Positions 8,080-56,622 of a stretch of DNA of 64,000 nucleotides are shown piece after piece. The notes beneath the pieces were generated by a model. The model was not told the DNA's origin, ran no database searches, and saw only the letters and a list, made by a program, of their open reading frames with translations. Position numbers and translations under genes: made by a program. How positions within the stretch are numbered: the stretch's first letter is position 1; each line of letters begins with the position of its first letter. The DNA comes from Methanoregula formicica SMSP (GTDB lineage Archaea > Halobacteriota > Methanomicrobia > Methanomicrobiales > Methanospirillaceae). The stretch covers positions 868,001 through 932,000 of the forward strand of contig NC_019943.1 of the NCBI RefSeq assembly GCF_000327485.1, read 5' to 3'.

Positions 8080-9161
8080 GCGTAACTCGTTCGACCCTCT
8101 TTGCCTTGATAAGTGTCGTATTTCTTATTCTGGCGGCAGGATGTACTGGACCAGAAAAGGTGCAGCCGACAAGCCCTTCTCCATCGGTGGAGCCGGTTGC
8201 TGTTGGCGTTTCAAGCCAGATCACCGGGGCCTGCACGCCTGTCACGATCACCCAGACGGACGGTACAGAGATAACCCTTCCATGTCACCCTGAGCGGATC
8301 ATCGTTACCAACAGCAATGCCGCCGAAATGATGATCGCGATCGGGGCCGGGGATAAGATTCTGGGTGTCACCCAGTCCACGACCAATGTTTCGTATATCA
8401 TGGAGAAGATCCCTCAAGCGGAGAACATCGGGGACTGGCAGATCCCCAATGTCGAGAAGATCCTGGCCCTCCACCCGGACGTGGTGATCGCGTACGCGAG
8501 CTCGAAACCCAAGAATACAGACCAGCTCGCCGCGGCAAATATCACGCTGGTGTATCTTGACTGCTTCCGACTCCCGACGCTTGCGCACGATGCCCGTGCC
8601 CTTGGGACGCTGACCGGGCACAAGAATGAGGCAGAAGTGTACGCCCGGCTCGTTGAGGATACGGTGGCGGATGTGACCGCCAAGGTCAAAACGATCCCGG
8701 AGAATTCGTACCCGGCCGTGTACTCGGAGTCGTATACGGATTATATGGCAGCTGGCCCGGGGTCCGGCTCGGATGAGCTTCTTTCGCTTGCCGGGGGGAA
8801 GAACATTGCTGAGGACGTGGCCGCGTCATCCATGAAAATCAGTACCGAATGGGTGGTTGCACGCCAGCCCACGTACATCTTCAAGGTGATCTCTTCCGGC
8901 AACTCAAAACCATTCCCGGAGATCCATGCAGCGCTCGTAAACCGGACCGGGTGGGATACGATTCCGGCCGTGAAGAACGACCGGGTCTATCTCTTTGCAA
9001 ACGATGTCCAGTACGGCCCGCGGGCGTACATCGGGCTCGTATACACGGCGCAGCTTCTCCACCCGGACGATTTCCGTGAGCTGCACCCGCGTGCGATGCT
9101 GGATGAGTACGCTCTGCGCTATGTCTCCGGTACGAACCGGACCGGGATGGTCTATCCATGA
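8076..9161 (+). CDS. metal-chelate substrate-binding lipoprotein (BtuF/FepB family)
   Basis: Periplasmic-binding-protein-like domain 2 family (361 residues). The signal peptide ends in a lipobox (LAAGC, Cys at about 25), so it is membrane anchored. The mature part has the family blocks PERIIVTNSNAAEMMIAIGAGDKILG, VEKILALHPDVVIAY and a C-terminal YTAQLLHPDDF helix. The ATG at 8076 sits in an ATGA overlap with the permease stop; longer in-frame starts upstream lie inside the permease gene and would bury the signal peptide. It resembles the four tandem binding proteins at 21-25 kb, sharing the xYSExxxDYMA pattern. Being the last gene of an ABC-2 operon is unusual; it may instead serve the BtuCD pair at 1092-3056. 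Confidence 0.88.
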   Translation: MSVTRSTLFALISVVFLILAAGCTGPEKVQPTSPSPSVEPVAVGVSSQITGACTPVTITQTDGTEITLPCHPERIIVTNSNAAEMMIAIGAGDKILGVTQSTTNVSYIMEKIPQAENIGDWQIPNVEKILALHPDVVIAYASSKPKNTDQLAAANITLVYLDCFRLPTLAHDARALGTLTGHKNEAEVYARLVEDTVADVTAKVKTIPENSYPAVYSESYTDYMAAGPGSGSDELLSLAGGKNIAEDVAASSMKISTEWVVARQPTYIFKVISSGNSKPFPEIHAALVNRTGWDTIPAVKNDRVYLFANDVQYGPRAYIGLVYTAQLLHPDDFRELHPRAMLDEYALRYVSGTNRTGMVYP

Positions 9162-14100: not shown

Positions 14101-15006
14101 ATGACCGGTGTCGTGAGTCAGGCCCTTCGATTCCTTCCATTGCTCGACCGTCAGGTACCCGGAGACGACCGGCTGGAAAATTGGGATATTGAGGGTTTTT
14201 AAAAGATCGATACCGGAAATAATCGCCGTTGTGCTTTCAAACTCCCCGGTCTTCGTGGCTCCCAGGAGATAGGGTACCAGCTTGATAATCGCATCGACAC
14301 GAGAGACCCCGTTCTTCATGAGGTAGTGATTGATGTCCTCGGCAATTCCCCGGGCTCCCACGCCTTCGTCCCGTGCCCAGTACGTGAACATGGGAATAAC
14401 ATTCATGCCCTCCGATTCCAGCTGGCGGATCAGCGCGTCCTCGATTGCCAAGTTCCCCGCAATCCACCAGAAGCGCAGGAAGATGACACTGACCCACGGG
14501 GCATCCCGTTTTTTGGGTTCATACCATTTCAGGTAATCCTCGGTGTTGGAGAATATTTTTTCGGCATCCGGATGATAGATACCATCCCACGGGAGTTTTG
14601 CCGGGGGATCCACCGGAACATCTGCGTTGAGCAATTCCTTTCCCAGATAATTCAGGAGGTTTTTGAGATTGTCATCGCCTCCGTAGGTAAAGTAAATCTG
14701 GCACCCCGATACGATCTCCGGTTTGACTGTCGACAGCGCCCAATAGGAGGGGTCACCGATGCTGACAACGGGTACTTTCTGACCAATGGACTTGAGTTCC
14801 TTATCGATCTGGTCCCAGACCAGTTCGGAACTGTGGTGAATCAGAATAATATCCGATTTTTTCATCTCCTCCAGTGCATTGTCCAGTTTTTCCTGGGACT
14901 GTCCCAGTACCGTTGAGGAAAAGAACGAGAGATCGATTCCCTCCTTTTCCGCAACCCGCTTCAGTGTGGGCCCGTACGCTCCCATCATGATCGATGTGAC
15001 TTTCAT
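11197..15006 (-). CDS. cobN: CobN-type large chelatase subunit
   Basis: A 1269-residue protein of the CobN / magnesium-chelatase H family, the tetrapyrrole-binding subunit into which metal is inserted by an AAA+ motor. Length and blocks such as CYGARCDGEVCKILHDPDCPPTHQY, HVGTHGTLEFLPGK and FVVWNGYAYG agree with full-length CobN. The aerobic B12 pathway uses CobN with CobS and CobT. Methanogens lack that route, and archaeal CobN proteins paired with ChlI/ChlD-like subunits remain without a firmly assigned reaction. The matching ATPases are 5 kb away on the same strand. It starts an operon with an ABC-2 transporter. The upstream region holds nested palindromes. Confidence 0.93.
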   Translation of the reverse strand: MKVTSIMMGAYGPTLKRVAEKEGIDLSFFSSTVLGQSQEKLDNALEEMKKSDIILIHHSSELVWDQIDKELKSIGQKVPVVSIGDPSYWALSTVKPEIVSGCQIYFTYGGDDNLKNLLNYLGKELLNADVPVDPPAKLPWDGIYHPDAEKIFSNTEDYLKWYEPKKRDAPWVSVIFLRFWWIAGNLAIEDALIRQLESEGMNVIPMFTYWARDEGVGARGIAEDINHYLMKNGVSRVDAIIKLVPYLLGATKTGEFESTTAIISGIDLLKTLNIPIFQPVVSGYLTVEQWKESKGLTHDTGHAVAMPEFDGVIEPIYIGSSGSISDGNNTKEFVADRIRKVSLRVRKWIALAKKPVHERKVAFILNNSPCGNSDANIGGGAHFDSLESVARILQSMKAAGYNVSAPESGKELIQTIIDKRAKSEFRWTTIEDIVSHGGALMQMEMSTYLPYFRSLPPAVQQKMTETWNEPPGLGMVYDNKILIVGVSYGNATVHVQPKRGCYGARCDGEVCKILHDPDCPPTHQYLATYYWIEHIQKADIVIHVGTHGTLEFLPGKGLGLSEECYPDIAAGTVPYIYIYNSDNPPEGTIAKRRAYAVLCDHMQTVMTQGGLYEGLEELDNLLSQYETAKIDPARAHALQHLIIDAVTAINLDKDMHLTHDLPLSEVVSRAHEALSKIRNTQIQSGMHIFGELPIGDKRLDFINSIIRFDTGDPSARRTIAEVMGFDLTELLTNQNKYSDEHQASYGALLERLESTSKKFIDSALSDTPASSQEIFGRPISPAQAKALDQIRARILDINKRVDESREIESLLNGLAGGYLSAGPSGQISRGHEEVLPTGRNFYSLDPYKVPTKPAWRVGKRLAESILAKYEKEEGKLPENIGFYWMCTDVMSSDGEMYAQLMALLGVEPVWQSNGQVRAFSIIPLEKLGRPRIDVTIRSSGILRDNFSNCYELLDEAIQAVAALDEPTEQNFVRKHALEKMQEKEGTSWRDATLRIFSSPPGTYSSGVNLAVLASAWKTEADLADIFVVWNGYAYGKDIQGTAAHEHLASSLSTVAVTFNSVISDEYDLLGCCCYFGTQGGMTAAARHYSGKDVKPYYGDTREPENVEVRDLSDEIRRVVRTKLLNPKWIEGMKEHGYKGAADIMRRITHVYGWEASTQEVDDWIFDDIANTFVNDDEMREFFEENNPYALEEIARRLLEAEQRGLWDADEQTLQDLRNNYLEIESWMEDQVTEGDHQGGNVDIFTHEDVGSWGESMRDVLAKVKANRPH

Positions 15007-26197: not shown

Positions 26198-26854
26198 TTA
26201 CCAAACCGGCATTAACAGTTGACCGTTGGCGATGGCCCGCTGAGTATTTATATCGAGGATATACCACTGTGTGCGCGAATTCGCAGACAGATACATATGT
26301 CCGCCGTTAATCCCTTTGGGCCCCCACATCAAAGTTCTTGATTTTCCACCGCTGCTAACATCATAACACTCGTCAGCATAGAACATAAATCTGTCACCGG
26401 GTGAAATAACCGTGTCCGATAATGATATGTTTCCTATCTTCAGGAAATACCCTCCGTTTGCGGTCCCGTAGGGCAGGATGGTATGGTCTGGGTCTAATTT
26501 ATCTGTGCCCCTGACCGTTTGTGTTGTTCCACTATCAGAGACTAATTCCACTATAATACTGTTAAGATTGAATGGAGTGCCCCCCGTGCTCTCGAACATA
26601 ATACCATTTTTAGCAGTAAAACCGTCAGGATATGTGCGTGTACATGTGAACGGGGCGACATTTACGCATGTAGATGTGCCCGTGACGTTATCGATCACAA
26701 CCGTTGCGGTAACCGTTGCGTGGGGTGTAATTTGTTGAGCGCCACCAAATCCCCCGGCGAATGCTGATACAACGGCGGCAATAATGATTGTCACCACAAG
26801 CATCAGCATAACACCGACGACCGGTGAGACCGCATCGTTGGACATTCTTGTCAT
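26198..26854 (-). CDS. archaeal type IV pilin
   Basis: 218 residues. Short leader MTRMSND, then AVSPVVGVMLMLVVTIIIAAVVSAFAGG, the Pilin_N helix processed by a prepilin peptidase. The exposed domain has one close cysteine pair (CVNVAPFTC) and a later single Cys, possibly disulphide stabilised. It overlaps the upstream pilin gene by 4 bases (26851-26854), so the two form one unit, transcribed away from the assembly ATPase operon at 27720. Confidence 0.9.
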   Translation of the reverse strand: MTRMSNDAVSPVVGVMLMLVVTIIIAAVVSAFAGGFGGAQQITPHATVTATVVIDNVTGTSTCVNVAPFTCTRTYPDGFTAKNGIMFESTGGTPFNLNSIIVELVSDSGTTQTVRGTDKLDPDHTILPYGTANGGYFLKIGNISLSDTVISPGDRFMFYADECYDVSSGGKSRTLMWGPKGINGGHMYLSANSRTQWYILDINTQRAIANGQLLMPVW

Positions 26855-27480
26855 AGTACAACAACCTCCTTGTCAAAGATGTATGTATTGCTCGGATTAT
26901 AGAGGATCTTAACATCCACCGTACTGCCGGACGTAAAGGAAGGATCCAGGCCAGCACCCCATCCCGCATCTCTCATACCCAGCAAAGCTGAAGTCCCCTC
27001 CGAATTAACCGAATTAAGTGAATCTCCGGGTTGCCATGTAAAGTTCCCGAAATTTTCATTAGGTCCTGTTGACCTTCCGCCATAGTCATTGTTTTTTACC
27101 ATATTGTAGCGAACTGGAAGGATCTTCGTAGCTTCGAACGCGCTACCTTTATTCATAATAACCCCGCTACTCTTGGCGGTACTTGTGTGTTTTAATATGT
27201 AGCCACTGCTATTTTTGTAATAGGTAATGATTGAAAGATCCTTGGTTGGAATATTATCACCACTAATATGGTTAAAAATCATCAGAATATTACCACTGTA
27301 CGCAGTGGTACTGATTTTTACATCAATTGCAGAACTTGGTGTCTTTTGAGTGCCGGATGTTAACCCTCCGGCAAACGCGCTCACCACCGCCGCAATAATA
27401 ATCGTTACCACCAACATCAGCATAACGCCGACGACCGGAGAGACGCCAGCGTCTCTGGACTTTTCGTAAGAATACATCAT
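26851..27480 (-). CDS. archaeal type IV pilin
   Basis: 209 residues. Leader MMYSYEKSRDAG, then VSPVVGVMLMLVVTIIIAAVVSAFAGG. The N-terminal helix is nearly identical to that of the next gene, while the surface domain is unrelated in sequence, as expected for pilins packed by a common helix. It stands head to head with the pilus assembly ATPase gene, which supports a shared filament. Confidence 0.9.
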   Translation of the reverse strand: MMYSYEKSRDAGVSPVVGVMLMLVVTIIIAAVVSAFAGGLTSGTQKTPSSAIDVKISTTAYSGNILMIFNHISGDNIPTKDLSIITYYKNSSGYILKHTSTAKSSGVIMNKGSAFEATKILPVRYNMVKNNDYGGRSTGPNENFGNFTWQPGDSLNSVNSEGTSALLGMRDAGWGAGLDPSFTSGSTVDVKILYNPSNTYIFDKEVVVL

Positions 27481-31689: not shown

Positions 31690-32112
31690 TTATTCTTCAA
31701 TAGAAATCGTCGTCAGTTTCACGGACTCGACGCCCTTGTGGGACATCAGTTTCTCGGCAAGCGCCTTGAGCTGGCTTCCATCGCCGTGGACCAGGATCAC
31801 CTCAAGACACTTCTCGTGGGTTACATGGGAATGGAGCGAGGCCTTGATAATGTCGTGATAATCATGCTCGACTTCAGTGATGGCCTGCAGGAGGTTCCTT
31901 TGTTCGTGGTCGTATACCATCGTGATGACCCCCTCGCGTTCACCTTTGACATCTGACATCCACTTGTAATACGTAATATACGTCCGGATGGCATCGCGTA
32001 TGCCTTCAGAACGCGAGGAATAGCCCCGGTAGTTCAGGATCTCATCGAACTTGTCGAGCAGGTTCTTCGGCAGTGAAATGCCGATCCGGGAGAGGTCGTC
32101 GTCCATGGTCAT
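31690..32112 (-). CDS. nikR: nickel-responsive regulator NikR, copy 1
   Basis: 140-residue ribbon-helix-helix regulator. Residues about 8-50 form the RHH domain (RIGISLPKNLLDKFDEI...SRSEGIRDAIR); the ACT-like nickel domain follows, with His83, His94, His96 and Cys102 matching E. coli NikR ligands His76, His87, His89 and Cys95. Ni-bound NikR represses Ni uptake genes. It is almost identical to the copy at 53975-54397, and both share a 27-bp palindrome directly before the start codon, which suggests autoregulation. A start two codons later (Met3) is possible. Confidence 0.95.
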   Translation of the reverse strand: MTMDDDLSRIGISLPKNLLDKFDEILNYRGYSSRSEGIRDAIRTYITYYKWMSDVKGEREGVITMVYDHEQRNLLQAITEVEHDYHDIIKASLHSHVTHEKCLEVILVHGDGSQLKALAEKLMSHKGVESVKLTTISIEE

Positions 32113-32117
32113 GGCGT

Positions 32118-32144
32118 ATCAGTGATGGGAATATCGTTGCTGAT
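32118..32144. promoter_or_regulatory. candidate NikR autoregulatory operator, copy 1
   Basis: ATCAGTGATG (32118-32127) to TTGCTGAT (32137-32144): ends ATCAG and CTGAT are inverted with 17 bases between. A 27-bp element with the same ends and spacing precedes the second nikR (54402-54428), while sequence outside it is unrelated. Located 5 bases upstream of the nikR start codon. Confidence 0.5.
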
Positions 32145-32695
32145 TGGTCATAAGGATTTTGAATCATCGGGGATTTCTGTTGTACTTGGTAATATTATGC
32201 ATGACAAACCCGGGGATTTTACAATCCTGCCGGTACGGATGGTTTTTGGCCTTCCGCACGCAGCCAGCAAAAAAACCGGCCATCCATGGTGGGTGTGCAT
32301 GGGGCCGGAATTGTCTGAACAATGATTAATAAATAATCATACGAAAGTAAAATATTTTTATACTACATCATCCAATTACTCTATGGTGATGACCATGGGA
32401 TCTCATCGCCGTTTATCTGCCTCATCATCGATCATCCATTCTTGCATGTCCCATAAGACCCATCTTTTTTCTATCCCCGTACCCTCTCTTTGCCGGGATC
32501 GGAAGAATATCGTTTAAGAAAAATTCATACGAATTTAAAAAGTTTTATTACGAACGGTTGCCTACACCTATTCCGGGATGATGGGAACCACGGGGCTGCC
32601 GGATACACTCCCACCGTGCACACGATCGGATCTGATGGCCCCGTCTTCGCATCCCGGTTTACGAATCGACAGTCAGGATCGGAGTTGAATACTTT
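32145..32695. other. long intergenic stretch, mostly unexplained
   Basis: No confident gene. Two similar AT-rich blocks begin with TCATACGAA (about 32338 and 32532): the first runs into AATATTTTTATAC, a good TATA element; the second precedes the Lys-rich small gene. A weak 44-codon frame (32383-32517) starting about 25-30 bases after the first TATA would be leaderless and is rich in His, Ser and Met; I do not call it a gene. Confidence 0.35.
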
Positions 32696-36018: not shown

Positions 36019-36054
36019 ATTTATATTTTGTTAAAGCAAGTATAATTGTTCTAA
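36019..36054 (+). promoter_or_regulatory. TATA box plus candidate operator of the wHTH regulator gene
   Basis: TTTATATTT (36019-36027), then the imperfect palindrome TTAAAGCAAG-TATA-ATTGTTCTAA (36031-36054, 10-4-10). The same architecture recurs at 37201-37224 and 37781-37804 and, loosely, at 55880-55902. Placed where a repressor would overlap the transcription start of 36127-36936. Confidence 0.5.
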
Positions 36055-36126: not shown

Positions 36127-36936
36127 ATGACACCGGATACACGAGACCTGCCTATGTCGATCCTGCGGAGCAAACGCGATGTTTCACGGTTTCAGATCCT
36201 CGTCGAGATCACCGAACACCAGCCGGGCATCCGCCAGCAGGAGATCGCCACGAAACTGGGCGTGACGCCGCAGGCCGTTTCCGAATACATCCGGGAGCTT
36301 GCCGACGAGGGGATGGTCTCCGCGAACCGTCGCGGAAATTACGAAGTGACAAAGGCCGGCATTGAATGGATCCTTGAAAATGCCGAAGTCCTTGAATCCT
36401 ATGCCCGCCACATCCGGCAGGACCTTATCCAGCAGGTCGCCTTCTGGACTGCGATCGCGGCTGAAGACCTCAGGGCAGGAGAAGATGCCGGTGTGTTCAT
36501 GAAAGACGGGTTCCTGTATGCCGGAAAGCAGCAGTCTGCCGCACGGGGAACCGTTGTGGCGGATGCAAAGAGGGGGACGGACGTCGGGATAGCCAGGCTG
36601 AACGGCATCATCGATCACCACGAGGGGACGATCCACGTCTGCAAGGTACCCCGGATCCAGCAGGGCGGGTCACGCAGAGTACAAAAAGACCAGCTGAAGG
36701 AGATCATTGCAACCACCGCAATGGTGGCAGCAGTCGGGGTGGAGGCCCGTGCCGCGCTGAAGTCCGTTGGCCGGGATCCGGACCTGTTCTTTGGCGCACG
36801 GGAAGGCGTGATCGAGGCGGCGTTCCATGGCATCGATTGTGCAATCGTTATTGTGGACGAGGAGTTTGCGGACTTCGTCAAGCGGCTGGAGGGCAGGGAA
36901 CTCGTGTACGTAATCCATGATCTAATAGCGCCATGA
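36127..36936 (+). CDS. winged-helix transcriptional regulator (COG1497-like)
   Basis: 269 residues. An N-terminal winged helix-turn-helix (about 15-75: RQQEIATKLGVTPQAVSEYIRELADEGMV) is followed by a linker helix and a ligand/effector domain (about 110-265) with EGTIHVCKVPRIQQGGSRRV and an alpha/beta C terminus (IDCAIVIVDEEFADFVKRL). This fits the archaeal predicted-regulator group COG1497, whose effectors are unknown. It is monocistronic with its own candidate operator. The same palindrome precedes the NikR-domain gene, the pilin operon and, less clearly, cbiMNQO, so it may control them. Confidence 0.85.
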   Translation: MTPDTRDLPMSILRSKRDVSRFQILVEITEHQPGIRQQEIATKLGVTPQAVSEYIRELADEGMVSANRRGNYEVTKAGIEWILENAEVLESYARHIRQDLIQQVAFWTAIAAEDLRAGEDAGVFMKDGFLYAGKQQSAARGTVVADAKRGTDVGIARLNGIIDHHEGTIHVCKVPRIQQGGSRRVQKDQLKEIIATTAMVAAVGVEARAALKSVGRDPDLFFGAREGVIEAAFHGIDCAIVIVDEEFADFVKRLEGRELVYVIHDLIAP

Positions 36937-37375
36937 ATAATGGTTGCGGGTTTGGAATGTATTGATGGGAACATTTCTTTTAGTGAAACACGGTTTTTCT
37001 CATCAGGTTCAACGCTGCAGCCAAAGCTCATGCAGAAAACTTCGATGATACTCCAATGTAGTGCGTATGTTTTTGTCTCTCTCGCAGATTGTTCTGGAAA
37101 GTCTTACCGGTGCAGGAATTCTCGCATGGAGTAAAAAGGCTTTTATTTTTCCTGATTGTTGAAAATTTTCGCTGAGTCGTATTGGACAAAAAATTTTTAG
37201 TTAAGACAAACAAAATTGTTTTAATATCCGGATGGATGTTTTGACTGGAATAAAAAATTCCTCGTTCAAGCTGTGTAACGATGACAGGGAATCGAAGCAT
37301 TTCTCAAACATCCTCCAAGAATGTTTATGAATGGGAAACCGGTTGAACCAATGGAAAGATGGTGGGTGTAATGCG
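36937..37375. promoter_or_regulatory. intergenic region with candidate operator at 37201-37224
   Basis: No gene seen. TTAAGACAAA-CAAA-ATTGTTTTAA (37201-37224) is a 10-4-10 palindrome followed by TAT, as at 36031, and preceded by AAAAATTTTTA. GGTGGGTG (37361-37368) is the ribosome binding site for the ATG at 37376. Confidence 0.5.
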
Positions 37376-37642
37376 ATGAAGGTACAACAGGAACAGAGGG
37401 GTGCGATGACGGTGATCTATGATTACAGCCAGAAGAGTGTGTGGCTGACACTGGAACACGTCCAGCACCGGTACAGCGGGATCATCCGGGCCTCGGTCCG
37501 GTCGCAGATGACCGAGAACCTTGGCATGGTAGTTATGCTCCTTAAGGGGCAGGATGACCAGTGCGCTTCTCTCCTTGAGCAGCTGAAAGCAAAGAAGGGT
37601 GTCCGGTCGGTGAACCTTACCGTGATTCCTCCCGAACAGTAA
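37376..37642 (+). CDS. orphan NikR C-terminal-like domain without DNA-binding part
   Basis: 88 residues aligning without gaps to the ACT-like nickel domain of the two NikR proteins here (GAMTVIYDYSQK against GVITMVYDHEQR; KKGVRSVNLTVI against HKGVESVKLTTI). There is no ribbon-helix-helix segment. Of the four Ni ligands only the His76 equivalent remains (His31); the others are Arg42, Gln44 and Gly50. It probably cannot bind Ni in the NikR manner. It could hetero-oligomerise with NikR as a modulator, or bind another ligand through the ACT-like fold. ATG 37376 is chosen over 37331 because of GGTGGGTG seven bases upstream. Confidence 0.8.
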   Translation: MKVQQEQRGAMTVIYDYSQKSVWLTLEHVQHRYSGIIRASVRSQMTENLGMVVMLLKGQDDQCASLLEQLKAKKGVRSVNLTVIPPEQ

Positions 37643-37767: not shown

Positions 37768-37804
37768 AATTAAAATAGTTTTAAAGCAAGCGTACTTGCG
37801 TCAA
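37768..37804 (+). promoter_or_regulatory. pilin operon promoter and candidate operator
   Basis: ATTAAAATAG (about 37769-37778), then TTAAAGCAAG-CGTA-CTTGCGTCAA (37781-37804), whose inner arms GCAAG/CTTGC are a perfect inverted repeat and whose left arm is identical to that at 36031-36040. Confidence 0.5.
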
Positions 37805-37882
37805 TAGTGAGGGGCACGCGATTTCCCGGTGATGACCGGATACTGTGTGTCTTTCCTGGACCTGAACGATGTGAGGCAGATA

Positions 37883-38602
37883 ATGGAAAGATCCAAACCC
37901 ACTTCAGATGAATGTGCAGTCTCACCGGTTGTCGGTGTCATGCTGATGCTCGTCGTGACGATCATCATTGCCGCAGTCGTTTCTGCCTTTGCTGCAGGAA
38001 TGGGAACACAGAAAGAGAAGACCCCCCAGTCCTCCTTAGAATGCCATATCAAATGGGACAACGGGGCGATGTCCGGTGTCCCGGGTCCCTTGTTCACGCT
38101 GAGGCACATCGGGGGAGATCCCATCAATACAAAAAACACAAAACTCGTAACCAGCTGGGCGAATGCCACGGGAATTTATCATATCCAGTCCACGGTGGCC
38201 CCGGTGTGGGGGACGGGACAGGAGACCTATACCACCGCACGCTCACCGGGGACCAGCAATTATACGCTCTCCTCTCTGAACACCCATTATACATCAACAT
38301 CCGGAGCCTCGTTATACTACAATGCCCCCTACCTTGCTGTTCCCGGGAGCTATCCGACCGGAACAGGATTTGCCAATAACGATACGGTACTCTGGTTTGG
38401 CAACTATGTTTTCCGTGCCGGGGATGTCATCCAGGCAAACACGGATAATACCGTATCCGGAACAGCGAACTACCAGAACCAGGCAACACCGATTATCAAG
38501 GATGCCCAACTCCTGACACGCAATGATTATGTCAATGTCAAACTGATCGACGTGAAATCCGGTTCAACGATCTATGAAAAAGATATCCTGGTGGAGAGGT
38601 GA
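37883..38602 (+). CDS. archaeal type IV pilin
   Basis: 239 residues: leader MERSKPTSDEC, then AVSPVVGVMLMLVVTIIIAAVVSAFAAG, then a large Thr/Ser/Tyr-rich domain with several NxT/S sequons. The ATG at 37883 is preferred over an in-frame ATG at 37829 because it gives a leader of normal length and GTGAGG stands about 7 bases before it. It is followed 3 bases later by a second pilin gene. The candidate operator upstream links its expression to the nearby wHTH regulator. Confidence 0.88.
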   Translation: MERSKPTSDECAVSPVVGVMLMLVVTIIIAAVVSAFAAGMGTQKEKTPQSSLECHIKWDNGAMSGVPGPLFTLRHIGGDPINTKNTKLVTSWANATGIYHIQSTVAPVWGTGQETYTTARSPGTSNYTLSSLNTHYTSTSGASLYYNAPYLAVPGSYPTGTGFANNDTVLWFGNYVFRAGDVIQANTDNTVSGTANYQNQATPIIKDAQLLTRNDYVNVKLIDVKSGSTIYEKDILVER

Positions 38603-38605
38603 ATC

Positions 38606-39112
38606 ATGGATCGAATTATCAGGAATTCCGATGCAGTTTCGCCAGTAATAGGCGTTATGCTCATGCTCGTTGTTACGATCATCATCGCGGCAGTTGTCAG
38701 CGCTTATGCCGGAGGGTTTTCTCAGGGAGCGGTCAAAACACCGCAGGTAACCATCGGGGCAGAAGTCCGGAACAGCTCATACGTTCTCATCAGCCATGAT
38801 GGCGGAGACTCTCTTGACCCGGCATCGATAACAATCAAGACCTACATCCCGTCAGGCACGTACAAGGACATGAGTTATGGGGTGGATCTTTTAAAGGCAA
38901 TCAACCTGGAAACGGGAGATGCCGTGAAGGGAACATACAGTTCCCAGGTAATCAAGCCCGGGGACAAGATTAAGATCAACTGGCCGGATGCCTTTGCCAC
39001 TTCCAAGTATGGGCTAATGGCTCCTGGTGTCGATGAACCAGTCAACGTTGAAATCTATGACTCGGGAAGCGGAAAAGTGATTGCAATGGTCCGGACGAAT
39101 GTACTGCCGTAA
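38606..39112 (+). CDS. archaeal type IV pilin
   Basis: 168 residues: leader MDRIIRNSD, then AVSPVIGVMLMLVVTIIIAAVVSAYAGG and a compact domain. GGAGAGG lies 8 bases before the ATG, overlapping the end of the first pilin gene, so the pair is translationally linked. It resembles the N-terminal plan of the pilin at 3-497 (AYAGG/TYAGG with GA(E/V)KxPQ following). A hairpin terminator closes the unit. Confidence 0.9.
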   Translation: MDRIIRNSDAVSPVIGVMLMLVVTIIIAAVVSAYAGGFSQGAVKTPQVTIGAEVRNSSYVLISHDGGDSLDPASITIKTYIPSGTYKDMSYGVDLLKAINLETGDAVKGTYSSQVIKPGDKIKINWPDAFATSKYGLMAPGVDEPVNVEIYDSGSGKVIAMVRTNVLP

Positions 39113-39113
39113 G

Positions 39114-39141
39114 CCGGGTATATCCCGGTTATCGCTTTTTT
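39114..39141 (+). terminator. hairpin plus T-run after pilin pair
   Basis: CCGGG-TATAT-CCCGG stem (39114-39128) with TTATCGC and six T residues (39136-39141). Confidence 0.65.
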
Positions 39142-39178
39142 GACACCGATGTGTGATCTCACCAGATGGAGCAGCCAT

Positions 39179-39544
39179 ATGTCAAATTTTTTTGGAATCA
39201 AACCGCAATCGGAAACACAAAAACTCATCAAGAAGTTCGAAGACGAAGTCCTGATCCGTTACAACAACCAGCAGCTGCTGGGGACTGTGTACGTGGACAT
39301 GCAGGAAGATCGCTGGGCAGTCGCGTTTGCGTATAATTATACCCGGCATCCCGGATTGCACGGGCACGAGAACCCGCTTGAAGTGCGGTATTCGGCAAAG
39401 CCGCAGGATGCTGGCCGGATCCAGGTGTTCCGTTCCAATGCTGCAGCAGAAAAAGTGCTGGACGCAGGGACAATCCCGGATGAAAATGCATTCATCCGCT
39501 ATGTCCTTTTACAGGAGCGCTCGCTTGCCGGGCGTGCCGCATGA
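39179..39544 (+). CDS. small conserved-looking protein, unknown function
   Basis: 121 residues, soluble, no signal or membrane helix: MSNFFGIKPQSETQKLIKKF, a central DMQEDRWAVAFAYNYTRHPGLHGHENPLEVRY and a C-terminal helix (ENAFIRYVLLQERS). The ATG at 39179 has GGAG 7-10 bases upstream; an in-frame ATG at 39140 adds 13 unlikely residues overlapping the terminator. No family recognised. It precedes the corrinoid uptake operon by 40 bases and might be co-transcribed. Confidence 0.65.
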   Translation: MSNFFGIKPQSETQKLIKKFEDEVLIRYNNQQLLGTVYVDMQEDRWAVAFAYNYTRHPGLHGHENPLEVRYSAKPQDAGRIQVFRSNAAAEKVLDAGTIPDENAFIRYVLLQERSLAGRAA

Positions 39545-39584: not shown

Positions 39585-40532
39585 GTGACCCGGACAATTC
39601 CGGTCATCACCGGCCTCATCATCGCAGCAGCGCTGACCATCATTGTCTGCACGTTCACCGGCCCCGCCGGTTTCGGCTTTGTCACAACCGCACCGGGAGC
39701 CGCAAACATCGTCGGGGGCATCCGGCTCCCCCGCGTTCTTGCTGCTTTTTTTGTCGGGGGAAGTCTGGCAGTCGCAGGCGCGGCTATGCAGGCACTCTTC
39801 AAAAACCCGATGGCCGATCCCTATATCCTCGGCACATCCTCCGGAGGAGCGCTCGGGGCCGCCCTTGCCATCGTCTTCTTTGGCGGATTCTTCGTACCGG
39901 TCTTTGCCTTTGCCGGGGCGATCATCGCGATCCTGATCGTCTGGGGAATTGCCGGCCGCAAAGGGGTTATCGCAACAGAGACGCTCCTGTTGACCGGCAT
40001 CGCGGTCTCGTACTTCCTCGCCGCCGTCCTCTCGTTCATGATTGCTGTTGCCGGCCAGAATGTCCACCAGATCGTCTTCTGGCTCATGGGAGGATTCTGG
40101 AATGCATCGTCGTCCGATGCCATTCTTGCAGCTGGTCTCCTTGTGTCGGCCGGGCTCCTCCTGTTCGTCATGGGCCGCGACCTTAACGCGCTCTCCTTGG
40201 GCGAGGAGACCGCCGCACATCTCGGGATCGATGCAGCCCGCGCCCGCTGGACCGTGCTTGGTGGCAGCGCACTGCTTGTCGCAGGTGCAGTATCCATTGC
40301 CGGTTCTATCGGTTTCATCGGGCTCGTCACCCCCCACATCATACGGTTGCTGCTCGGCCCGGACAACCGCGTCGTGATCCCCGCAAGCATTCTTGGCGGC
40401 GGGATCCTGCTGGTGATATCGGATACGATCGTGCGGACATTCTTCTCCGACCTGCCGGTCGGGATCATCACCGCATTCATCGGCGCCCCGTTCTTCATCT
40501 GGCTCATCTACCGGCGGGGGGAGGTATCATGA
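39585..40532 (+). CDS. btuC: corrinoid ABC transporter permease (BtuC-like)
   Basis: 315-residue FecCD permease with about nine or ten helices and the blocks GGIRLPRVLAAFFVGGSLAVAGAAMQALFKNPMADPYILGTSSG, LMGGFWNAS and GSIGFIGLVTPHIIRLL. It starts at GTG 39585 with GGGAG a few bases upstream. It overlaps the ATPase gene by 4 bases (ATGA). Assignment as a corrinoid importer rests on the operon: ATPase, TIM barrel, BtuF-like protein, CbiA/CfbB and CbiZ follow with almost no spacing. Confidence 0.88.
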   Translation: MTRTIPVITGLIIAAALTIIVCTFTGPAGFGFVTTAPGAANIVGGIRLPRVLAAFFVGGSLAVAGAAMQALFKNPMADPYILGTSSGGALGAALAIVFFGGFFVPVFAFAGAIIAILIVWGIAGRKGVIATETLLLTGIAVSYFLAAVLSFMIAVAGQNVHQIVFWLMGGFWNASSSDAILAAGLLVSAGLLLFVMGRDLNALSLGEETAAHLGIDAARARWTVLGGSALLVAGAVSIAGSIGFIGLVTPHIIRLLLGPDNRVVIPASILGGGILLVISDTIVRTFFSDLPVGIITAFIGAPFFIWLIYRRGEVS

Positions 40533-41824
40533 ACAGCCACGTTCCGGTGAATGCAGAGAACCTCGCTGCCGGCTATAATGGAAAGGAGATCGTCAGTTCC
40601 GTCACCTGTTCGTTTGCAAAGGGCACCTTCATCGGTATTATCGGACCGAATGGGTCGGGAAAGACTACCCTCCTCCGCGCGATCAGCCGCGTTATTCCCT
40701 CTAGCGGGATCCTTGAACTGGACGGCAGGCCGGTCAGCGGGTATACCCCGGCCGAGCTGGGCGTGGCGCTCGGTTTTGTCCCGCAGGACGAGGACCGGCC
40801 GTTCGCGTACACGGTCATGCAGGTTGTCCTGATGTCGCGGTATGCACGGGTGAGCAGGTTTGCCTCACTCTCTCCCAACGATTATGCCCGGTGTTACCGT
40901 GCCCTTGACCGGACTGGCATCACTCACCTGAAGGACCGGTCGATCCGCGCCCTCTCCGGGGGCGAGTGGCAGCGGGTGCTCATTGCCCGGGCCCTTGCGC
41001 AGGACACACCGGTGATCCTGCTGGACGAGCCCACGTCCCACCTGGACCTCGCGCACCAGGTTGGTATCCTCACGCTCGTCCGGGACCTTGCCCGTTCCGG
41101 GAGGACCGTTGTCGGCGTATTCCACGACCTCAACCTCGCCCTGCAGTACTGCGACCGGCTCCTGATGATCCAGGGCGGGCATATTGTTGCTGACGGGGCA
41201 CCGGGGGATGTCCTGACACCGGAAAATGTGCGGGAAGTCTACGGGGCCGAAGTGGTCACCACTTCGCACCCGGCAACAGGCCGGACCATCCTCGTACCGC
41301 TCGATACCCGGAATAATGGTGACGGTTCTCTGGAGAAACAAAAGGTACTTGTCATCTCCGGCGGGGGAAGCGGGGGCGATCTCCTCCGGGTCCTCTGCCA
41401 CAACGGGTACGCCGTTTCGGCCGGCATCCTCGCAACAACCGATTCGGACTATGCTGTTGTAAAAGCGCTGGAGATCCCCTGTATCCCCGTCCTCCCCTTC
41501 TCGCAGATCCCGGCGCATGCCCTGGAAAAACTCAAACGGCTGGTGGTACAGGCCGATCGCATTGTCCTTTCTGTGCATCCTGTCGGTGCCGGTAATTACC
41601 CGGTCCTCGAAATTCTCCAGAGCATGGAACCCGGGCGCCTCGTTATCCACCTTCCGGATGGCAGGGAGTTCTCGTCGTACGACTTTACCCGGGGAAAGGC
41701 GGCTGCCGCCTATGCTGCACTCTGTACTGCCGGGGCATCCTGCACCGGGACCTGTGACGGGATCCTTGTAATCCTGGAAGGGAATATCGGTAACCCCCCG
41801 CGATCTTCGGGGAATACACCATGA
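40529..41824 (+). CDS. btuD: corrinoid ABC transporter ATPase (BtuD-like) with extra C-terminal domain
   Basis: 431 residues. Residues 1 to about 262 are a normal FecE/BtuD ATPase (Walker A GPNGSGKTT, ALSGGEWQRVLIARAL signature, VILLDEPTSHLDL). About 165 further residues form a second, alpha/beta-looking domain starting VLVISGGGSGGDLLRVLCHNGYAV, with a Gly-rich loop like a nucleotide- or corrinoid-binding Rossmann unit and a Cys-containing end (LCTAGASCTGTC). The usual ATPase is about 260 residues, so this is a true fusion. It overlaps both neighbours by 4 bases. The extension may sense or process the imported corrinoid. Confidence 0.88.
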   Translation: MNSHVPVNAENLAAGYNGKEIVSSVTCSFAKGTFIGIIGPNGSGKTTLLRAISRVIPSSGILELDGRPVSGYTPAELGVALGFVPQDEDRPFAYTVMQVVLMSRYARVSRFASLSPNDYARCYRALDRTGITHLKDRSIRALSGGEWQRVLIARALAQDTPVILLDEPTSHLDLAHQVGILTLVRDLARSGRTVVGVFHDLNLALQYCDRLLMIQGGHIVADGAPGDVLTPENVREVYGAEVVTTSHPATGRTILVPLDTRNNGDGSLEKQKVLVISGGGSGGDLLRVLCHNGYAVSAGILATTDSDYAVVKALEIPCIPVLPFSQIPAHALEKLKRLVVQADRIVLSVHPVGAGNYPVLEILQSMEPGRLVIHLPDGREFSSYDFTRGKAAAAYAALCTAGASCTGTCDGILVILEGNIGNPPRSSGNTP

Positions 41825-42570
41825 CAAGCCCGTTCTTTCTCTCAACATTCTGCTGCATGGACCGTCCGCTGGACGCAGCGCTTGAAACTCTCGCCCCCCG
41901 CACGGGCCATGTCGAGATCGTAGCGGACGGGCCCCACGATATTCTCGCGGATCCCGGAGTATGCAGCTGCTATACCTGCTCATATTCCGTCCACGCGCCC
42001 ACAAGCGAGATCAACATCGCCTCGGTCAGCGAACGTATGCGGAAATTCTCGGTTGCCGTTCTCGGCGACGTGATGGCAGCCTGTGCTGCTATCGGCGCCC
42101 GGCACCTTGTTGTCCACCCGGGATATGCCGTGTATGAACAGGTCCGTGACCGGTCGTTTACCTCCCTGCTTCGTTCGCTTGACGATCTCTCCCACCTCCA
42201 GGAGGAGCACGGGGTCCGTGCCTGTGTCGAGAACATGGGCTCGTGGGAATGCTGCCATTTCCGGACTCCCACCCTCCTCCCCGAACTGGATTCGCGCGGC
42301 CTGGGTTTTGCTCTCGACTGCGGCCATGCCCGGCTGAATGGGAACCTCGATGCGTTCCTTGCCACCAGACAGTGCTGCCATGTCCACCTTCACGACAATG
42401 GCGGAACGAACGATGACCATGATGCATGCGGCAGCGGCACGATCGACTTTCCCTCCCTCCTCAATTTGGTCCCATCCCATGCAACCCTTGTTGTTGAGAC
42501 CCGCGAACTGGTTGCCGCGGACCGCAGCCTCACGTACCTTTCCTCATGCAAAAACGGAACCCTGTCATGA
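41821..42570 (+). CDS. AP-endonuclease-2-like TIM barrel, candidate cobamide-remodelling CbiR
   Basis: 249 residues of the xylose-isomerase/AP endonuclease 2-like TIM-barrel superfamily. Metal-site-type segments occur in order: YSVHAPTSE, HLVVHPGYA, CVENMG, LDCGHARLNG, HVHLHDNGG with DDHDACGSGTIDF, and VVETRE. Its place between BtuD and BtuF and ahead of CbiZ points to corrinoid chemistry. CbiR, a member of this superfamily, is known to cleave the lower-ligand linkage of cobamides, and this protein is a good candidate for that reaction. A sugar-phosphate isomerase is the alternative but has no contextual support. Overlaps both neighbours by 4 bases. Confidence 0.7.
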   Translation: MTSPFFLSTFCCMDRPLDAALETLAPRTGHVEIVADGPHDILADPGVCSCYTCSYSVHAPTSEINIASVSERMRKFSVAVLGDVMAACAAIGARHLVVHPGYAVYEQVRDRSFTSLLRSLDDLSHLQEEHGVRACVENMGSWECCHFRTPTLLPELDSRGLGFALDCGHARLNGNLDAFLATRQCCHVHLHDNGGTNDDHDACGSGTIDFPSLLNLVPSHATLVVETRELVAADRSLTYLSSCKNGTLS

Positions 42571-43601
42571 TGCCACGAACTTCACCCTTCAAAAACCCGC
42601 GGGCAGCTCTGCTTGCTGCCCTGCTGCTCGTTTCCTGCTGTGTCCTGCCGGTATCGGCTGTTGCAGTGACCGACGATGCCGGGACCACTGTCACGCTCAA
42701 TGCAACGCCCCAGCGGATCGTTTCGCTTGCCCCTTCCAACACCGAGATCCTTGCAGCCCTCGACCTGACCGGCCGCCTCGTGGGCATAACAGATGTCTGC
42801 AACTATCCCCCTGAAGTGAACACCGTTCCTCGCATCGGGGGGTATTCCTCCATCAGCACCGAGAAGGTCTCGGCTGCAAGGCCCGACCTGGTCATCGCAT
42901 CGGACATCACCCCGGCAGAGACGACAGCCCGGCTTCGGGCGCTCGGCCTGAACGTGGTGGTCGTTGCGCCCCGGAACATCGATGACATGATCCGGGATAT
43001 CCGAATGGTCGGGGCCCTGACCGGCACGGATGCGGAGGCAGAGCGGCTGGCTGCGAACCTCTCGTTGCGCCTCGCGGCCGTGGGGACTGCAGAGCGGCCG
43101 GCAGGCACCCGCCCGGCCATTGCGCACGTGGTATGGAATAACCCGCTGTACGTGAGCGGGAACAATACCCTCCAGAACGATGTGATCGAACATGCGGGTG
43201 GGAAGAATGCTTTTGCCGGCATATCCGGGTGGGGCACCGTCACCCTTGAGGAGTTCCTTGTAACGAACCCGGATATCATAATCGTCAGCGGGGGCGGCGG
43301 CATGGATAATTCGACCCGGGATGTAATTCTCGACGATTTCATGACCCGCCCGCAGTATGCCTCGCTCTCTGCGGTGAAGAACCACCGGGTATATGCCGTG
43401 AACGCCGATGCTATCAGCCGGGCAGGCCCGCGGATCGTGGACGCGACCGAACAGGTGGCAGCCGATATTCGGGAGATGACCCGAACCGGGACAGGCGGAA
43501 CGGCAGGGGCGGTCCCGACCACCAGAACGCCGGGGTTCTGTGCAGCAGGTACGGTCCTGCTCATCGCCGCGTTCGTGTGCCTGATACAATGGAGACGGTA
43601 A
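42567..43601 (+). CDS. btuF: corrinoid-binding protein (BtuF-like), C-terminally anchored
   Basis: 344 residues. A signal peptide ends at PVSAVA, without a lipobox, and the mature domain has TPQRIVSLAPSNTEILAALDLTGRLVGI, VSAARPDLVIA and a long central helix. The C terminus is a membrane helix (GTVLLIAAFVCLI) followed by basic WRR, so this binding protein is tail-anchored rather than lipid-anchored, unlike the other six here. The ATG at 42567 overlaps the TIM-barrel stop (ATGA); the in-frame ATG at 42546 adds seven residues. The mature sequence is closest in style to BtuF, supporting cobamide uptake. Confidence 0.86.
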   Translation: MMPRTSPFKNPRAALLAALLLVSCCVLPVSAVAVTDDAGTTVTLNATPQRIVSLAPSNTEILAALDLTGRLVGITDVCNYPPEVNTVPRIGGYSSISTEKVSAARPDLVIASDITPAETTARLRALGLNVVVVAPRNIDDMIRDIRMVGALTGTDAEAERLAANLSLRLAAVGTAERPAGTRPAIAHVVWNNPLYVSGNNTLQNDVIEHAGGKNAFAGISGWGTVTLEEFLVTNPDIIIVSGGGGMDNSTRDVILDDFMTRPQYASLSAVKNHRVYAVNADAISRAGPRIVDATEQVAADIREMTRTGTGGTAGAVPTTRTPGFCAAGTVLLIAAFVCLIQWRR

Positions 43602-43602
43602 C

Positions 43603-44976
43603 ATGGATACGGCGTTCAGGGATTTTGGTGAGGACGGCATCAATACCGAAATCCCCCGGCTCGTCATTGCCGGAACGGAGAGCGGCTGTGGCAAGACTTC
43701 CCTTGCAAGCGGCCTGATGAGTGCACTCCGTGAGCGCGGCCTTGTCGTCCAGCCGTTCAAGACCGGCCCGGACTTCATCGATCCCACCCATCATACCCGG
43801 ATCTGCGGCAGGACATCGCGGAACCTCGACCCGTTCATGATGGGAGAGGAGGGGGTCTTCAAGACCTTTGTAATCGCATCTGCGGGCGCGGATATCGCGG
43901 TTGTTGAGGGGGCAATGGGCCTCTTTGACGGGATCGATGGTTCTGACTTCAGCAGTACGGCTCACGTGGCGCGGATCCTCACTGCCCCGGTCGTGCTGGT
44001 TGTCAGCGCCGCTGCTTCCGCCCGGAGTATCCACGCCGTTGTCCGCGGATTCCGCGACTTCGATCCCCGGGTCAGGATTGTCGGGGTCATCTTCAACCGG
44101 CTCGCTACGACAAAGCATCGCGATATGATCGCGGCAGAAGAGTTCGTCCCTGCCCTTGGCTATATCTCCCGGCAGGAGGGGCCCGGGGTGCAGAGCCGCC
44201 ACCTCGGCCTTGTTATGGCTCACGAATCAGACGCGATGCAGTCGTACGGGCAGGTTGTGCGGGAATCGTGCGACCTTGATGCAATCCTTGCTATTGCCCG
44301 CGGTGCTCCGCCGCTTGCAGATCCGGGTTTTGCCATGCGTCCAAAAGGAGAAAAACGCGCTGTCATCGGTGTTGCCCGCGACAATACGTTCTGCTTTTAC
44401 TACCAGAACAACCTTGACCGACTCGTCCGTGCCGGTGCAGAGCTACGGTTCTTCTCGCCCATGGACGATGCGTTACCGGAGATGGATGCTCTCTATCTCG
44501 GCGGGGGATATCCGGAGCTGTTTGCAGACAGGCTCGAAGCTTCTCCCTGCAGGCATGCCATCTGCAGGCTTGCTGATCAGGGCATGCCGGTGTACGGCGA
44601 GTGCGGCGGCCTGATGTATCTGGGCAGGTCCATCACCACCGATCGTGAGTATCAGATGGCCGGTATTCTTCCGGCCTGTACGGAACTGACCCCGCGGATC
44701 CAGGCCCTGGGATATGTGAAAGGAACCTTTTCCAATCCCGTCGGTTTCTGGGCCGGTGGCTCCCGTGTCCTTGGCCATGAGTTCCATTTCTCCCGGACGG
44801 AATGCGACCGGGACGCCCGGTTTACCCTGCACTTAAAGCAGGGGACCGGGATCCGTGACGGGAACGACGGGCTGACCGAACAGAACACGGTAGGGGCGTA
44901 CACTCATGCCTATTTCAGCGACTCCTTCTGCGAACAGTTTGTTGCGGCAGCTGAAGTGTTCCGGAGGAACCCGTGA
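43603..44976 (+). CDS. cbiA: cobyrinate / Ni-sirohydrochlorin a,c-diamide synthase family
   Basis: 457-residue glutamine-dependent amidotransferase. The N-terminal P-loop domain has GTESGCGKTS and KTGPDFIDPTHH with DIAVVEGAMGLFDG; the C-terminal class I glutaminase-like domain has YGECGGLMYLG carrying the active Cys, and GHEFHFS. The family amidates the a and c carboxylates of cobyrinate (CbiA) or of Ni-sirohydrochlorin on the way to F430 (CfbB). Sequence alone does not separate these. The salvage operon and the downstream CbiZ favour CbiA, since no other F430 genes are nearby. One base separates it from the binding-protein stop, and it abuts the CbiZ start (TGA|ATG). Confidence 0.9.
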   Translation: MDTAFRDFGEDGINTEIPRLVIAGTESGCGKTSLASGLMSALRERGLVVQPFKTGPDFIDPTHHTRICGRTSRNLDPFMMGEEGVFKTFVIASAGADIAVVEGAMGLFDGIDGSDFSSTAHVARILTAPVVLVVSAAASARSIHAVVRGFRDFDPRVRIVGVIFNRLATTKHRDMIAAEEFVPALGYISRQEGPGVQSRHLGLVMAHESDAMQSYGQVVRESCDLDAILAIARGAPPLADPGFAMRPKGEKRAVIGVARDNTFCFYYQNNLDRLVRAGAELRFFSPMDDALPEMDALYLGGGYPELFADRLEASPCRHAICRLADQGMPVYGECGGLMYLGRSITTDREYQMAGILPACTELTPRIQALGYVKGTFSNPVGFWAGGSRVLGHEFHFSRTECDRDARFTLHLKQGTGIRDGNDGLTEQNTVGAYTHAYFSDSFCEQFVAAAEVFRRNP

Positions 44977-46098
44977 ATGGGAGCTGACAGGGTCGGCCTG
45001 CCGGAAACTATGATGGCCGTGTTGCCGGGCAACGAGCAGGTTAAAAACTACGGGGCTTCTCTGGTGGTCAGGTTCACAGGGCCGCGTTCGGTTCTTTCCA
45101 CATCATGGCTGAATGGCGGTTACCGCACGGATCTCCACGCAGTCTTCAATCACCAGATCCTGCTTGAGGCATGCGAGTCCTGCCATAATGGCGGGAGCGT
45201 GCGGGAATACCTCGAAGGGGTTGCCCGCGGTCTCGGGTTCGACCCGGAGACAGTCACCGGCCTGGTCACCCGGGCGGAGATGAGGAATACCGCAATTATG
45301 ACAGAACAGTTTCGGGACCTCGCGGTCACTGCCATCGTGACGGCAGGCATCGACAAGAACGGCGGCCGGGCAGGTGATCCTGCATCGTATTACGAGGACG
45401 GGGACTCATTTGAGCTGGTCGGCGGGACCATCAACACCATCCTCGTCATCGGTGCAGATCTGCCGGAGCACGCGATGGCCCGGGCCCTGATGACAGCATC
45501 GGAGGCAAAGGCTGCGGCCCTCCAGCAGCTGATGGCCCGGAGCCTGTACTCCTGCGGGATCGCCACCGGCTCCGGTACCGACATGATCGCCATCGTGTCC
45601 GATCCCGGATCCCGGTTCCATCTCACCGATGCCGGGAAGCACGCGAAACTCGGCGAATTGATCGGCAGGACGGTTATCCGGGCAACGACTGAAGCACTGG
45701 AGAAGGAGACCGGGCTCTCGGCCGAATCGCAGCGGGATGTGCTGGTACGGTTGTCACGGTTTGGCGTGACGGAAGAATGTCTCTGGGAGCATGCAAAACG
45801 CTGCAGTCTGTGGGATCCCGGAAAACGGGAATCGTTTCGTCTTGCACTGGTGTCATGGTCAGGAAATCCTGCCGCAATTGCCGGGATTGCCGCAGTCCTG
45901 CATATCGTTGATGAGGCAGCCTGGGGCCTGATACGTGAGACGGATGCAATCGGGACAATCGAACGTATCCTGTGCCAGGATGTCTGGTGTTCATGGGAAA
46001 GCCATGATCAGAATGGTCATATCCTGTGCGTTCTCGCAGGTGTTATCTGTGGCATTGTGACGGGCAGGCAGTCTTCTCCAGCAGGGGAGATTTTTTAA
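44977..46098 (+). CDS. cbiZ: adenosylcobinamide amidohydrolase CbiZ
   Basis: 373 residues, with the CbiZ block VLSTSWLNGGYR...AVFNHQ near the start and NTAIMTEQFRDLAVTAIVTAGIDKNGGRAGDP plus GGTINTILVIGADL in the core (about 100-165); the C-terminal 190 residues contain SLYSCGIATGSGTDMIAIVS. CbiZ cleaves the aminopropanol amide of adenosylcobinamide to give adenosylcobyric acid, allowing imported corrinoids to be rebuilt with the cell's own lower ligand. Last gene of the uptake/remodelling operon. The C-terminal extension after about 245 is longer than the minimal catalytic unit; its role is not clear. Confidence 0.9.
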   Translation: MGADRVGLPETMMAVLPGNEQVKNYGASLVVRFTGPRSVLSTSWLNGGYRTDLHAVFNHQILLEACESCHNGGSVREYLEGVARGLGFDPETVTGLVTRAEMRNTAIMTEQFRDLAVTAIVTAGIDKNGGRAGDPASYYEDGDSFELVGGTINTILVIGADLPEHAMARALMTASEAKAAALQQLMARSLYSCGIATGSGTDMIAIVSDPGSRFHLTDAGKHAKLGELIGRTVIRATTEALEKETGLSAESQRDVLVRLSRFGVTEECLWEHAKRCSLWDPGKRESFRLALVSWSGNPAAIAGIAAVLHIVDEAAWGLIRETDAIGTIERILCQDVWCSWESHDQNGHILCVLAGVICGIVTGRQSSPAGEIF

Positions 46099-55879: not shown

Positions 55880-55902
55880 TTAAGCAAGTTTTATTTACTT
55901 AA
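55880..55902. promoter_or_regulatory. candidate operator before cbiMNQO
   Basis: TTAAGCAAGT-TTT-ATTTACTTAA, a palindrome with 8 of 10 arm positions matching, and a further TTAATGCAAGTAAAA direct repeat immediately after. Related to the TTAAAGCAAG palindromes at 36031 and 37781, but with a 3-base spacer. Confidence 0.4.
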
Positions 55903-55929
55903 TGCAAGTAAAATTGATCCTGTATCATC

Positions 55930-56622
55930 ATGCACATCATGGAAGGATTCTTACCCTGGCAGTGGTGCGTAATCTGGTGGCTTGTCGCCCTCCCCTGCCT
56001 CATGCTCGGTATCTGGCAGCTCAAAAAGGTCATCAACGCAGACCGCGAGGCGCTGCCTCTGCTTGGCGTTACAGGCGGGTTTATCTTCATCCTCTCGTCC
56101 CTGAAGCTCCCGTCCGTCACGGGGAGCTGTTCGCACCCGACCGGCACCGGTCTCTCGGCTATCTGTTTTGGCCCGTGGATCACCGCCGTGATCTGCGCTA
56201 TCGTTCTCCTCTTCCAGAGCCTCTTCCTCGCCCACGGCGGCCTCTCCGTTCTGGGGGCAAACATCGTCTCTATGGGTATTGTCGGCCCCCTTGTCGGGTA
56301 CGCCATCTACCGGCTCTTAAAGGATACGTCGGTCAATATCTACCTGACAGTCTTCCTTGCAACGGCGCTCGCGGACATGTTCACCTACGTGACTACCTCG
56401 CTTGAACTTGCGCTTGCCTATCCCGCTGAGGTGGGCGGGTTTGCCAGTTCGTTTGTCATGTTCATGGCGATCTTTGCCGTCACGCAGGTGCCGCTTGCGA
56501 TTGTCGAAGGAGTTGTGCTTGCCCTCGTGTTCAAGTACATCGTCGCCCTCAAGCCCGACATCCTCATCCGGATGAAGATATTTTCCGAAGCACAAATCAC
56601 GGCAGCACGGGGTGAGGCATAA
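55930..56622 (+). CDS. cbiM: cobalt/nickel ECF transporter S component CbiM
   Basis: 230 residues, about seven helices, starting MHIMEGFLP, the conserved N terminus whose amino group and His chelate the metal in the CbiM/NikM family. SCSHPTGTGLSA and the LFLAHGGLSVLGANIVSMG motif are present. It binds Co(II) or Ni(II) outside and delivers it through the CbiQ/CbiO energising module. It overlaps cbiN by one base. Presence of a separate cbiN favours cobalt, but the two metals cannot be told apart from this. Confidence 0.94.
   Translation: MHIMEGFLPWQWCVIWWLVALPCLMLGIWQLKKVINADREALPLLGVTGGFIFILSSLKLPSVTGSCSHPTGTGLSAICFGPWITAVICAIVLLFQSLFLAHGGLSVLGANIVSMGIVGPLVGYAIYRLLKDTSVNIYLTVFLATALADMFTYVTTSLELALAYPAEVGGFASSFVMFMAIFAVTQVPLAIVEGVVLALVFKYIVALKPDILIRMKIFSEAQITAARGEA

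Follow-up and report, generated by a model that had tools for sequence, protein, structure and literature searches.

The window, a stretch of 64,000 nucleotides from the single-contig genome (2,820,858 bases) of Methanoregula formicica SMSP, contains a gene for an 88-residue protein that consists of a stand-alone C-terminal domain of NikR (NikR_C). Rather than a damaged regulator, the small gene is probably an auxiliary to metal uptake. Comparison of the sequences indicates that an old copy of nikR was stripped of the DNA-binding half and of the nickel site while retaining the NikR_C fold, and that it travelled with a pair of pilin genes under an operator with the core CAA-N6-TTG. The gene probably belongs to a cobalt/corrinoid-uptake regulon, presumably run by a DUF7839 protein, an assignment made because the operator is common to the DUF7839 gene, the pilin genes and cbiM. 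As to the mechanism, formation of mixed oligomers with canonical NikR ranks first, with a probability of about 0.4. The features of the window are listed in Table 1.

Table 1. Features of the window around the stand-alone NikR_C gene and at cbiM
Feature	Position	Strand	Remarks
Nearest canonical nikR	31690..32112	-	RHH + NikR_C, all ligands
Candidate operator 5' of the DUF7839 gene	36031..36054	+	same operator as at the stand-alone gene
Winged-helix + DUF7839 protein	36127..36936	+	candidate regulator; second copy, the other at G000:C1:458529
Candidate palindromic operator of the stand-alone gene, TTAAGACAA-N6-TTGTTTTAA	37201..37224	+	directly preceded by an AT-rich, TATA-like stretch
Stand-alone, nickel-blind NikR_C domain protein	37376..37642	+	88 aa; open reading frame followed by stop, Pfam, alignment, structure model
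Candidate operator 5' of the first pilin gene	37781..37804	+	same operator
Archaeal type IV pilin (Pilin_N) A	37829..38602	+	likely start further in, near 37883
Archaeal type IV pilin (Pilin_N) B	38606..39112	+	
Conserved small protein, family unassigned	39140..39544	+	recurs in these clusters
FecCD permease	39585-40532	+	
ABC ATPase	40529-41824	+	
TIM-barrel protein	41821-42570	+	
Peripla_BP_2 binding protein	42546-43601	+	
CobB/CbiA-type amidotransferase + CbiZ adenosylcobinamide amidohydrolase	43603..46098	+	
Candidate operator core 5' of cbiM, TTAATGCAA-N6-TTG	55899..55916	+	
cbiM, substrate subunit of cobalt ECF transporter	55930..56562	+	end = end of Pfam match

The protein and its fold

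The 88-aa protein passes the gathering cut-off of PF08753 (NikR_C) over the whole domain (E 7.4e-19, 68.2 bits versus a cut-off of 22), with residues 9-84 covering positions 2-77 of the 77-position profile, and no RHH family was reported by Pfam. The preliminary description had claimed a gap-free match to the C-terminal domain of NikR, the loss of three of the four nickel ligands and the absence of the DNA-binding half; all of this is borne out by Pfam and by comparison with both canonical NikRs of the window, to which the domain aligns without a gap. In the numbering of E. coli NikR, which we take to apply in the register of the gap-free alignment, His76 is kept and His87, His89 and Cys95 are replaced by Arg, Gln and Gly. 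The corresponding columns of canonical NikR domains read H/H/H/C in 72 of 73 rows and H/H/Q/C in the remaining one. Identity to the NikR_C domains of the same genome is only 36-37%. An alternative ATG upstream, at 37331, would yield a protein of 103 aa; the start of the 88-aa form coincides with that of its relative in Methanoregula sp. OWC_0058, a member of the same genus. A search of PHROGs with the 88-aa protein gave no match.

The NikR_C fold is retained in the predicted structure. The AlphaFold model of the single chain (pLDDT 88, pTM 0.77) found NikR structures as its best Foldseek matches, among them 2bj7 (E 6.8e-9, TM by query 0.88), and it also matched TM1266 (2nzc_A, E 3.9e-7, TM by query 0.82). 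With NikR (PRK01002/TIGR02793) the protein thus has in common the fold of the C-terminal domain and the gap-free sequence match, but it differs in the missing RHH half, the incomplete nickel site and scores below the cut-offs of all NCBIfam NikR models (57.4 versus 111, 35.1 versus 105, 30.9 versus 83 and 30.6 versus 175.45 bits), and its gene differs in its operator and in having pilin genes as neighbours. The TM1266-type NikR_C-like proteins (PDB 2nzc) have the same fold and also stand alone without a DNA-binding domain; the difference lies in the neighbours of the 88-aa protein, which are pilins and cobalt/corrinoid uptake genes. TM1266 itself may be linked to hydrogenase. No family of this type was reported for the 88-aa protein in Pfam or NCBIfam, and no model named after TM1266 appeared among its NCBIfam matches up to E 10, a search in which weak matches can be lost to the HMMER filters and the library is assumed to contain such a model. 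Lrp-family proteins that consist of a RAM domain alone offer a parallel, in that the sensor domain of a regulator lives without the DNA-binding half, but they belong to another fold family and derive from another regulator. In the open-licence literature we found nothing on the stand-alone protein, including searches for NikR with pilins, archaeal pilins with cobalamin and cobalt-responsive regulators of methanogens, and no paper on TM1266 with NikR, on truncated or paralogous NikR, or on M. formicica with NikR.

Distribution, descent and selection

The same stand-alone domain, which the preliminary description had suggested looking for in other methanogens, is conserved. Scans with PF08753 of 39 genomes of the genus and 69 further genomes of the family revealed eight stand-alone NikR_C genes among the 108 genomes, distributed over two genera, which rules out a gene unique to the M. 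formicica genome. Six members belong to the genus of the window: the window gene and those of OWC_0058 (locus L037), G029 (L038), G013 (L039), G020 (L043) and G001 (L103); two come from another genus, G175 (L150) and G169 (L155). The count leaves aside G033:C172, which runs into N, and G025:C27, a frameshifted copy with RHH. A scan of genome contigs with sequence patterns gave OWC_0058 alone because the patterns are narrow. A model built on the six members of the genus scores these at 139-151 bits and the next sequence at 94.5, a gap that arises partly by construction since the same six rows made the model; the G175 and G169 members were recognised by the search with that model, by the PF08753 scan and by their context. 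In 232 genomes of the order, searched in a way that mixes canonical NikR with stand-alone genes, the only further short frames among the matches listed were a NikR at a contig edge in G105 and one of 112 aa in G069.

None of the eight members has the full nickel site of four ligands, and in all eight the reading frame is intact. An upstream RHH region disrupted by a frameshift, named beforehand as the mark of a merely broken nikR, was looked for and is absent at all eight members: with the RHH model, the three forward frames of the 900 nt upstream of each member gave a best E value of 2, versus 8e-37 for the positive control. The lack of an RHH relic together with the intact frames therefore rules out a broken nikR. 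In trees of 86 columns with long branches, all eight stand-alone rows form one branch (support 94/88), as do seven of them when OWC_0058 is absent (96/90), and in a quick tree from which the four ligand columns were removed the stand-alone rows still lie on one side (88). The genus also contains NikR paralogues that have lost the nickel site (G000:C1:844127 and relatives); these resemble the stand-alone proteins in that loss but retain the RHH half and form a separate branch (99/94).

The gene is under purifying selection in the closest relatives. Four members give omega values of 0.07-0.17 among themselves, and the window gene compared with OWC_0058 gives 0.31; these figures are to be read with several synonymous distances near saturation and with up to 0.66 in more distant pairs. 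Canonical NikR has 37 nearly invariant columns. In the stand-alone set the four ligand columns rank with the most relaxed of these (a value as high came up in 76 of 20000 random draws), while fold-core positions such as G10, I37, I38, S41, L56, G59, L67, L71, G76, S79 and L82 are common to both. A nikR remnant that decays slowly and is kept by its position between a promoter and the pilin genes would account for the ligand columns that are free to vary, the long branches and the occurrence in only eight of 108 family genomes. In G175, moreover, the operator and the stand-alone gene are separated by a relic of the start of cbiM (L150, positions 8495-8640), so the cluster does carry debris. Arguing against such a passenger are the intact frames, the low omega values, the invariance of the fold core and the presence of an operator of its own in front of all eight genes, which together make a decaying remnant improbable.

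Pilins and uptake genes

In all eight loci, archaeal type IV pilin genes lie 3' of the stand-alone gene on the same strand. The distance from its stop codon to the pilin signature is 68-279 nt in seven loci; in G001, with cbiM and cbiN intervening, it is 1194 nt. Matches to Pilin_N number only 13 in the M. formicica genome, 12 of them over the cut-off, and the constant adjacency is therefore beyond chance, although the eight loci share descent. Downstream in the window, the four genes from 39585 to 43601 encode what is by sequence a BtuCDF-like corrinoid/metal importer. A BtuC-like gene follows in five of the eight loci (window, L038, L039, L103 and L150); in L037 a CobN-like gene, read from its translation, comes next, and no BtuC was found within the fetched stretches of L043 and L155. 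The small protein encoded between pilins and permease has no Pfam match over the cut-off and recurs beside pilins, BtuC and DUF7839. Further pilin groups of the window, at 18-497 and 26198-27480, lie one beside BtuCD-like genes and the other beside a row of binding-protein genes. In G011, which lacks the stand-alone gene, a fragment of the 3' end of nikR adjoins a pilin pair on the opposite strand (L159, 8447-8536).

The candidate CAA-N6-TTG operator and its probable link to cobalt

A candidate operator common to the regulator gene, the stand-alone gene and the pilins had been noticed earlier and was found at all three. The sites at 36031, 37201 and 37781 are palindromes of the type TTAARRCAA-N6-TTG; the 24-bp pattern was derived from these sites, so that its three perfect matches are circular. 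The core CAA-N6-TTG occurs in 19 copies, often in tandem with a 20-bp step, in 17 upstream regions (eight upstream of the stand-alone genes, eight stretches after them and one upstream of DUF7839), compared with 2.3 in shuffles. It precedes the stand-alone gene in eight of eight loci and is present in six of the eight stretches that follow it, five times before pilins and once before cbiM; the two stretches without a core are those of the other genus, in which the pilin begins at 68-76 nt. Across the genome of the window, TTAANRCAA-N6-TTG, a pattern partly shaped by the known sites, gave six matches at five distinct sites, four of which lie at DUF7839, the stand-alone gene, the pilin and cbiM; a control pattern gave four matches in the same genome. 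Among lead pilins in the scanned loci, eight of 14 have the core, and three of these eight do so without a stand-alone gene directly in front, which suggests that the pilins belong to the regulon more constantly than the stand-alone gene does.

The core is located 25-29 nt before the start of cbiM in seven of nine genes with an MHIMEG-type start, one of the seven being the relic in G175, and is absent before cbiM at L161 and L162. We take the MHIMEG start to mark cobalt transporters and the MHIPD start to mark nickel transporters; the MHIPD-type transporter gene of the window genome has no CAA-N6-TTG, and a third CbiM match of this genome (2610842), whose start did not fit the pattern, lies outside the comparison. 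The relic suggests that the cluster of stand-alone gene and pilins has taken over a cbiM promoter.

None of 26 upstream regions of canonical nikR contains CAA-N6-TTG. Eight of the 26 contain TTACCAAGTA, compared with 0.0 in shuffles. The nikR promoters show a conserved TACCAAGTA element, for example at 32113-32240 of the window, which is a candidate site of NikR autoregulation. Presence of the operator 5' of cbiM and its absence at canonical nikR point to a cobalt regulon and not to a NikR regulon. The operator might nevertheless be that of NikR itself, the cluster a nickel regulon and the 88-aa protein a product of NikR control that feeds back on NikR. Earlier predictions of NikR sites at Cbi/NikMNQO of methanogens are reported in PMC10617489 and form the chief argument from the literature against a cobalt regulon, and full NikR is described as regulating such transporters in other groups (PMC545781). 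The lack of the core at all nikR genes, where another element is found, and at the MHIPD-type gene, as well as the adjacency of DUF7839 copies to cbiM, make control by NikR the least favoured of the readings and quite unlikely.

DUF7839 is present in 35 of the 39 genomes of the genus. Copies adjoin cbiM in six loci (G012, G019, G194, G030, G009 and G003), and the operator lies upstream of DUF7839 in three of the 30 best loci examined (window, G031 and G194, the last by eye) and is missing in the other 27. On the basis of this neighbourhood the DUF7839 protein is a candidate regulator of the cobalt operon. DUF7839 as a constant neighbour of the stand-alone gene was ruled out; the two are close in the window genome only. 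No paper on DUF7839 was found in the open-licence literature. The locus supplies both a candidate operator of cobalt control and a candidate regulator family, and it places pairs of type IV pilins in a metal/corrinoid uptake module, where their presence would be unexpected.

Possible functions of the 88-aa protein

In the favoured model, the DUF7839 protein would repress the promoters with the operator under ample supply of cobalt or corrinoid, and the 88-aa protein would for this reason be made when cobalt is short. It would then combine with canonical NikR into mixed dimers or tetramers and weaken NikR at its own targets, since it would contribute no arms for DNA binding and no ligands for nickel, so that nickel control would become coupled to the cobalt status. 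Consistent with such mixing are the fold from which NikR tetramers are made, which is kept, the loss of the parts that bind DNA and nickel, and the occurrence of at least one copy of canonical NikR in all eight genomes with the stand-alone gene, in four of the eight loci within 5.6 kb. NikR is near-universal among the matches listed for the genomes of the order, and its co-occurrence with the stand-alone gene therefore says little. The low identity of the window protein to the NikR_C domains of its genome, the scarcity of the operator at DUF7839 loci and the distance of DUF7839 from the stand-alone gene in other genomes also weigh against the model. The most far-reaching form of the model, a two-metal switch by subunit mixing in which a nickel-blind NikR antagonist without DNA binding is controlled by cobalt and encoded with pilins that capture cobalt or corrinoid at the surface, is rather unlikely as a whole. 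Methanogens require nickel and cobalt alike, and we know of no link between the control of the two metals in these organisms. If the protein does poison NikR under cobalt shortage, such a link becomes testable.

Close behind mixed oligomers ranks a reading in which the protein acts alone or with a partner other than NikR. With the fold and the regulon taken from the analyses above and the ligand or partner supposed, a homo-oligomer of the NikR_C (ACT-like) fold might bind a different ligand within the cobalt-uptake module, or the protein might dock on DUF7839 or on a pilin-assembly factor. All eight genes precede pilins and use the pilins' operator, whereas canonical nikR lies within 5.6 kb of the stand-alone gene in only four of the eight loci; the link to pilins and cobalt is therefore tighter than that to nikR. 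TM1266 provides a solved structure of a stand-alone protein of this fold. Arguing against a function of this kind, the protein shows no obvious new pocket of conserved polar residues, the columns that once bound metal rank with the most variable, and no partner is known at the level of the domain. A different ligand or partner is nearly as probable as mixed oligomers with NikR, which are preferred.

Two further observations concern genes outside the cluster. The NikR paralogues without ligands but with RHH constitute a second type, found at G000:C1:844127-844354 (L040), L041, L042, L104, L105 and L106, the last of which is frameshifted. Elsewhere in the window, two neighbouring genes (3113-5062 and 5099-6172) have nearly identical ChlI/ChlD-like starts, with a CobN-like gene nearby at 11197-15006.
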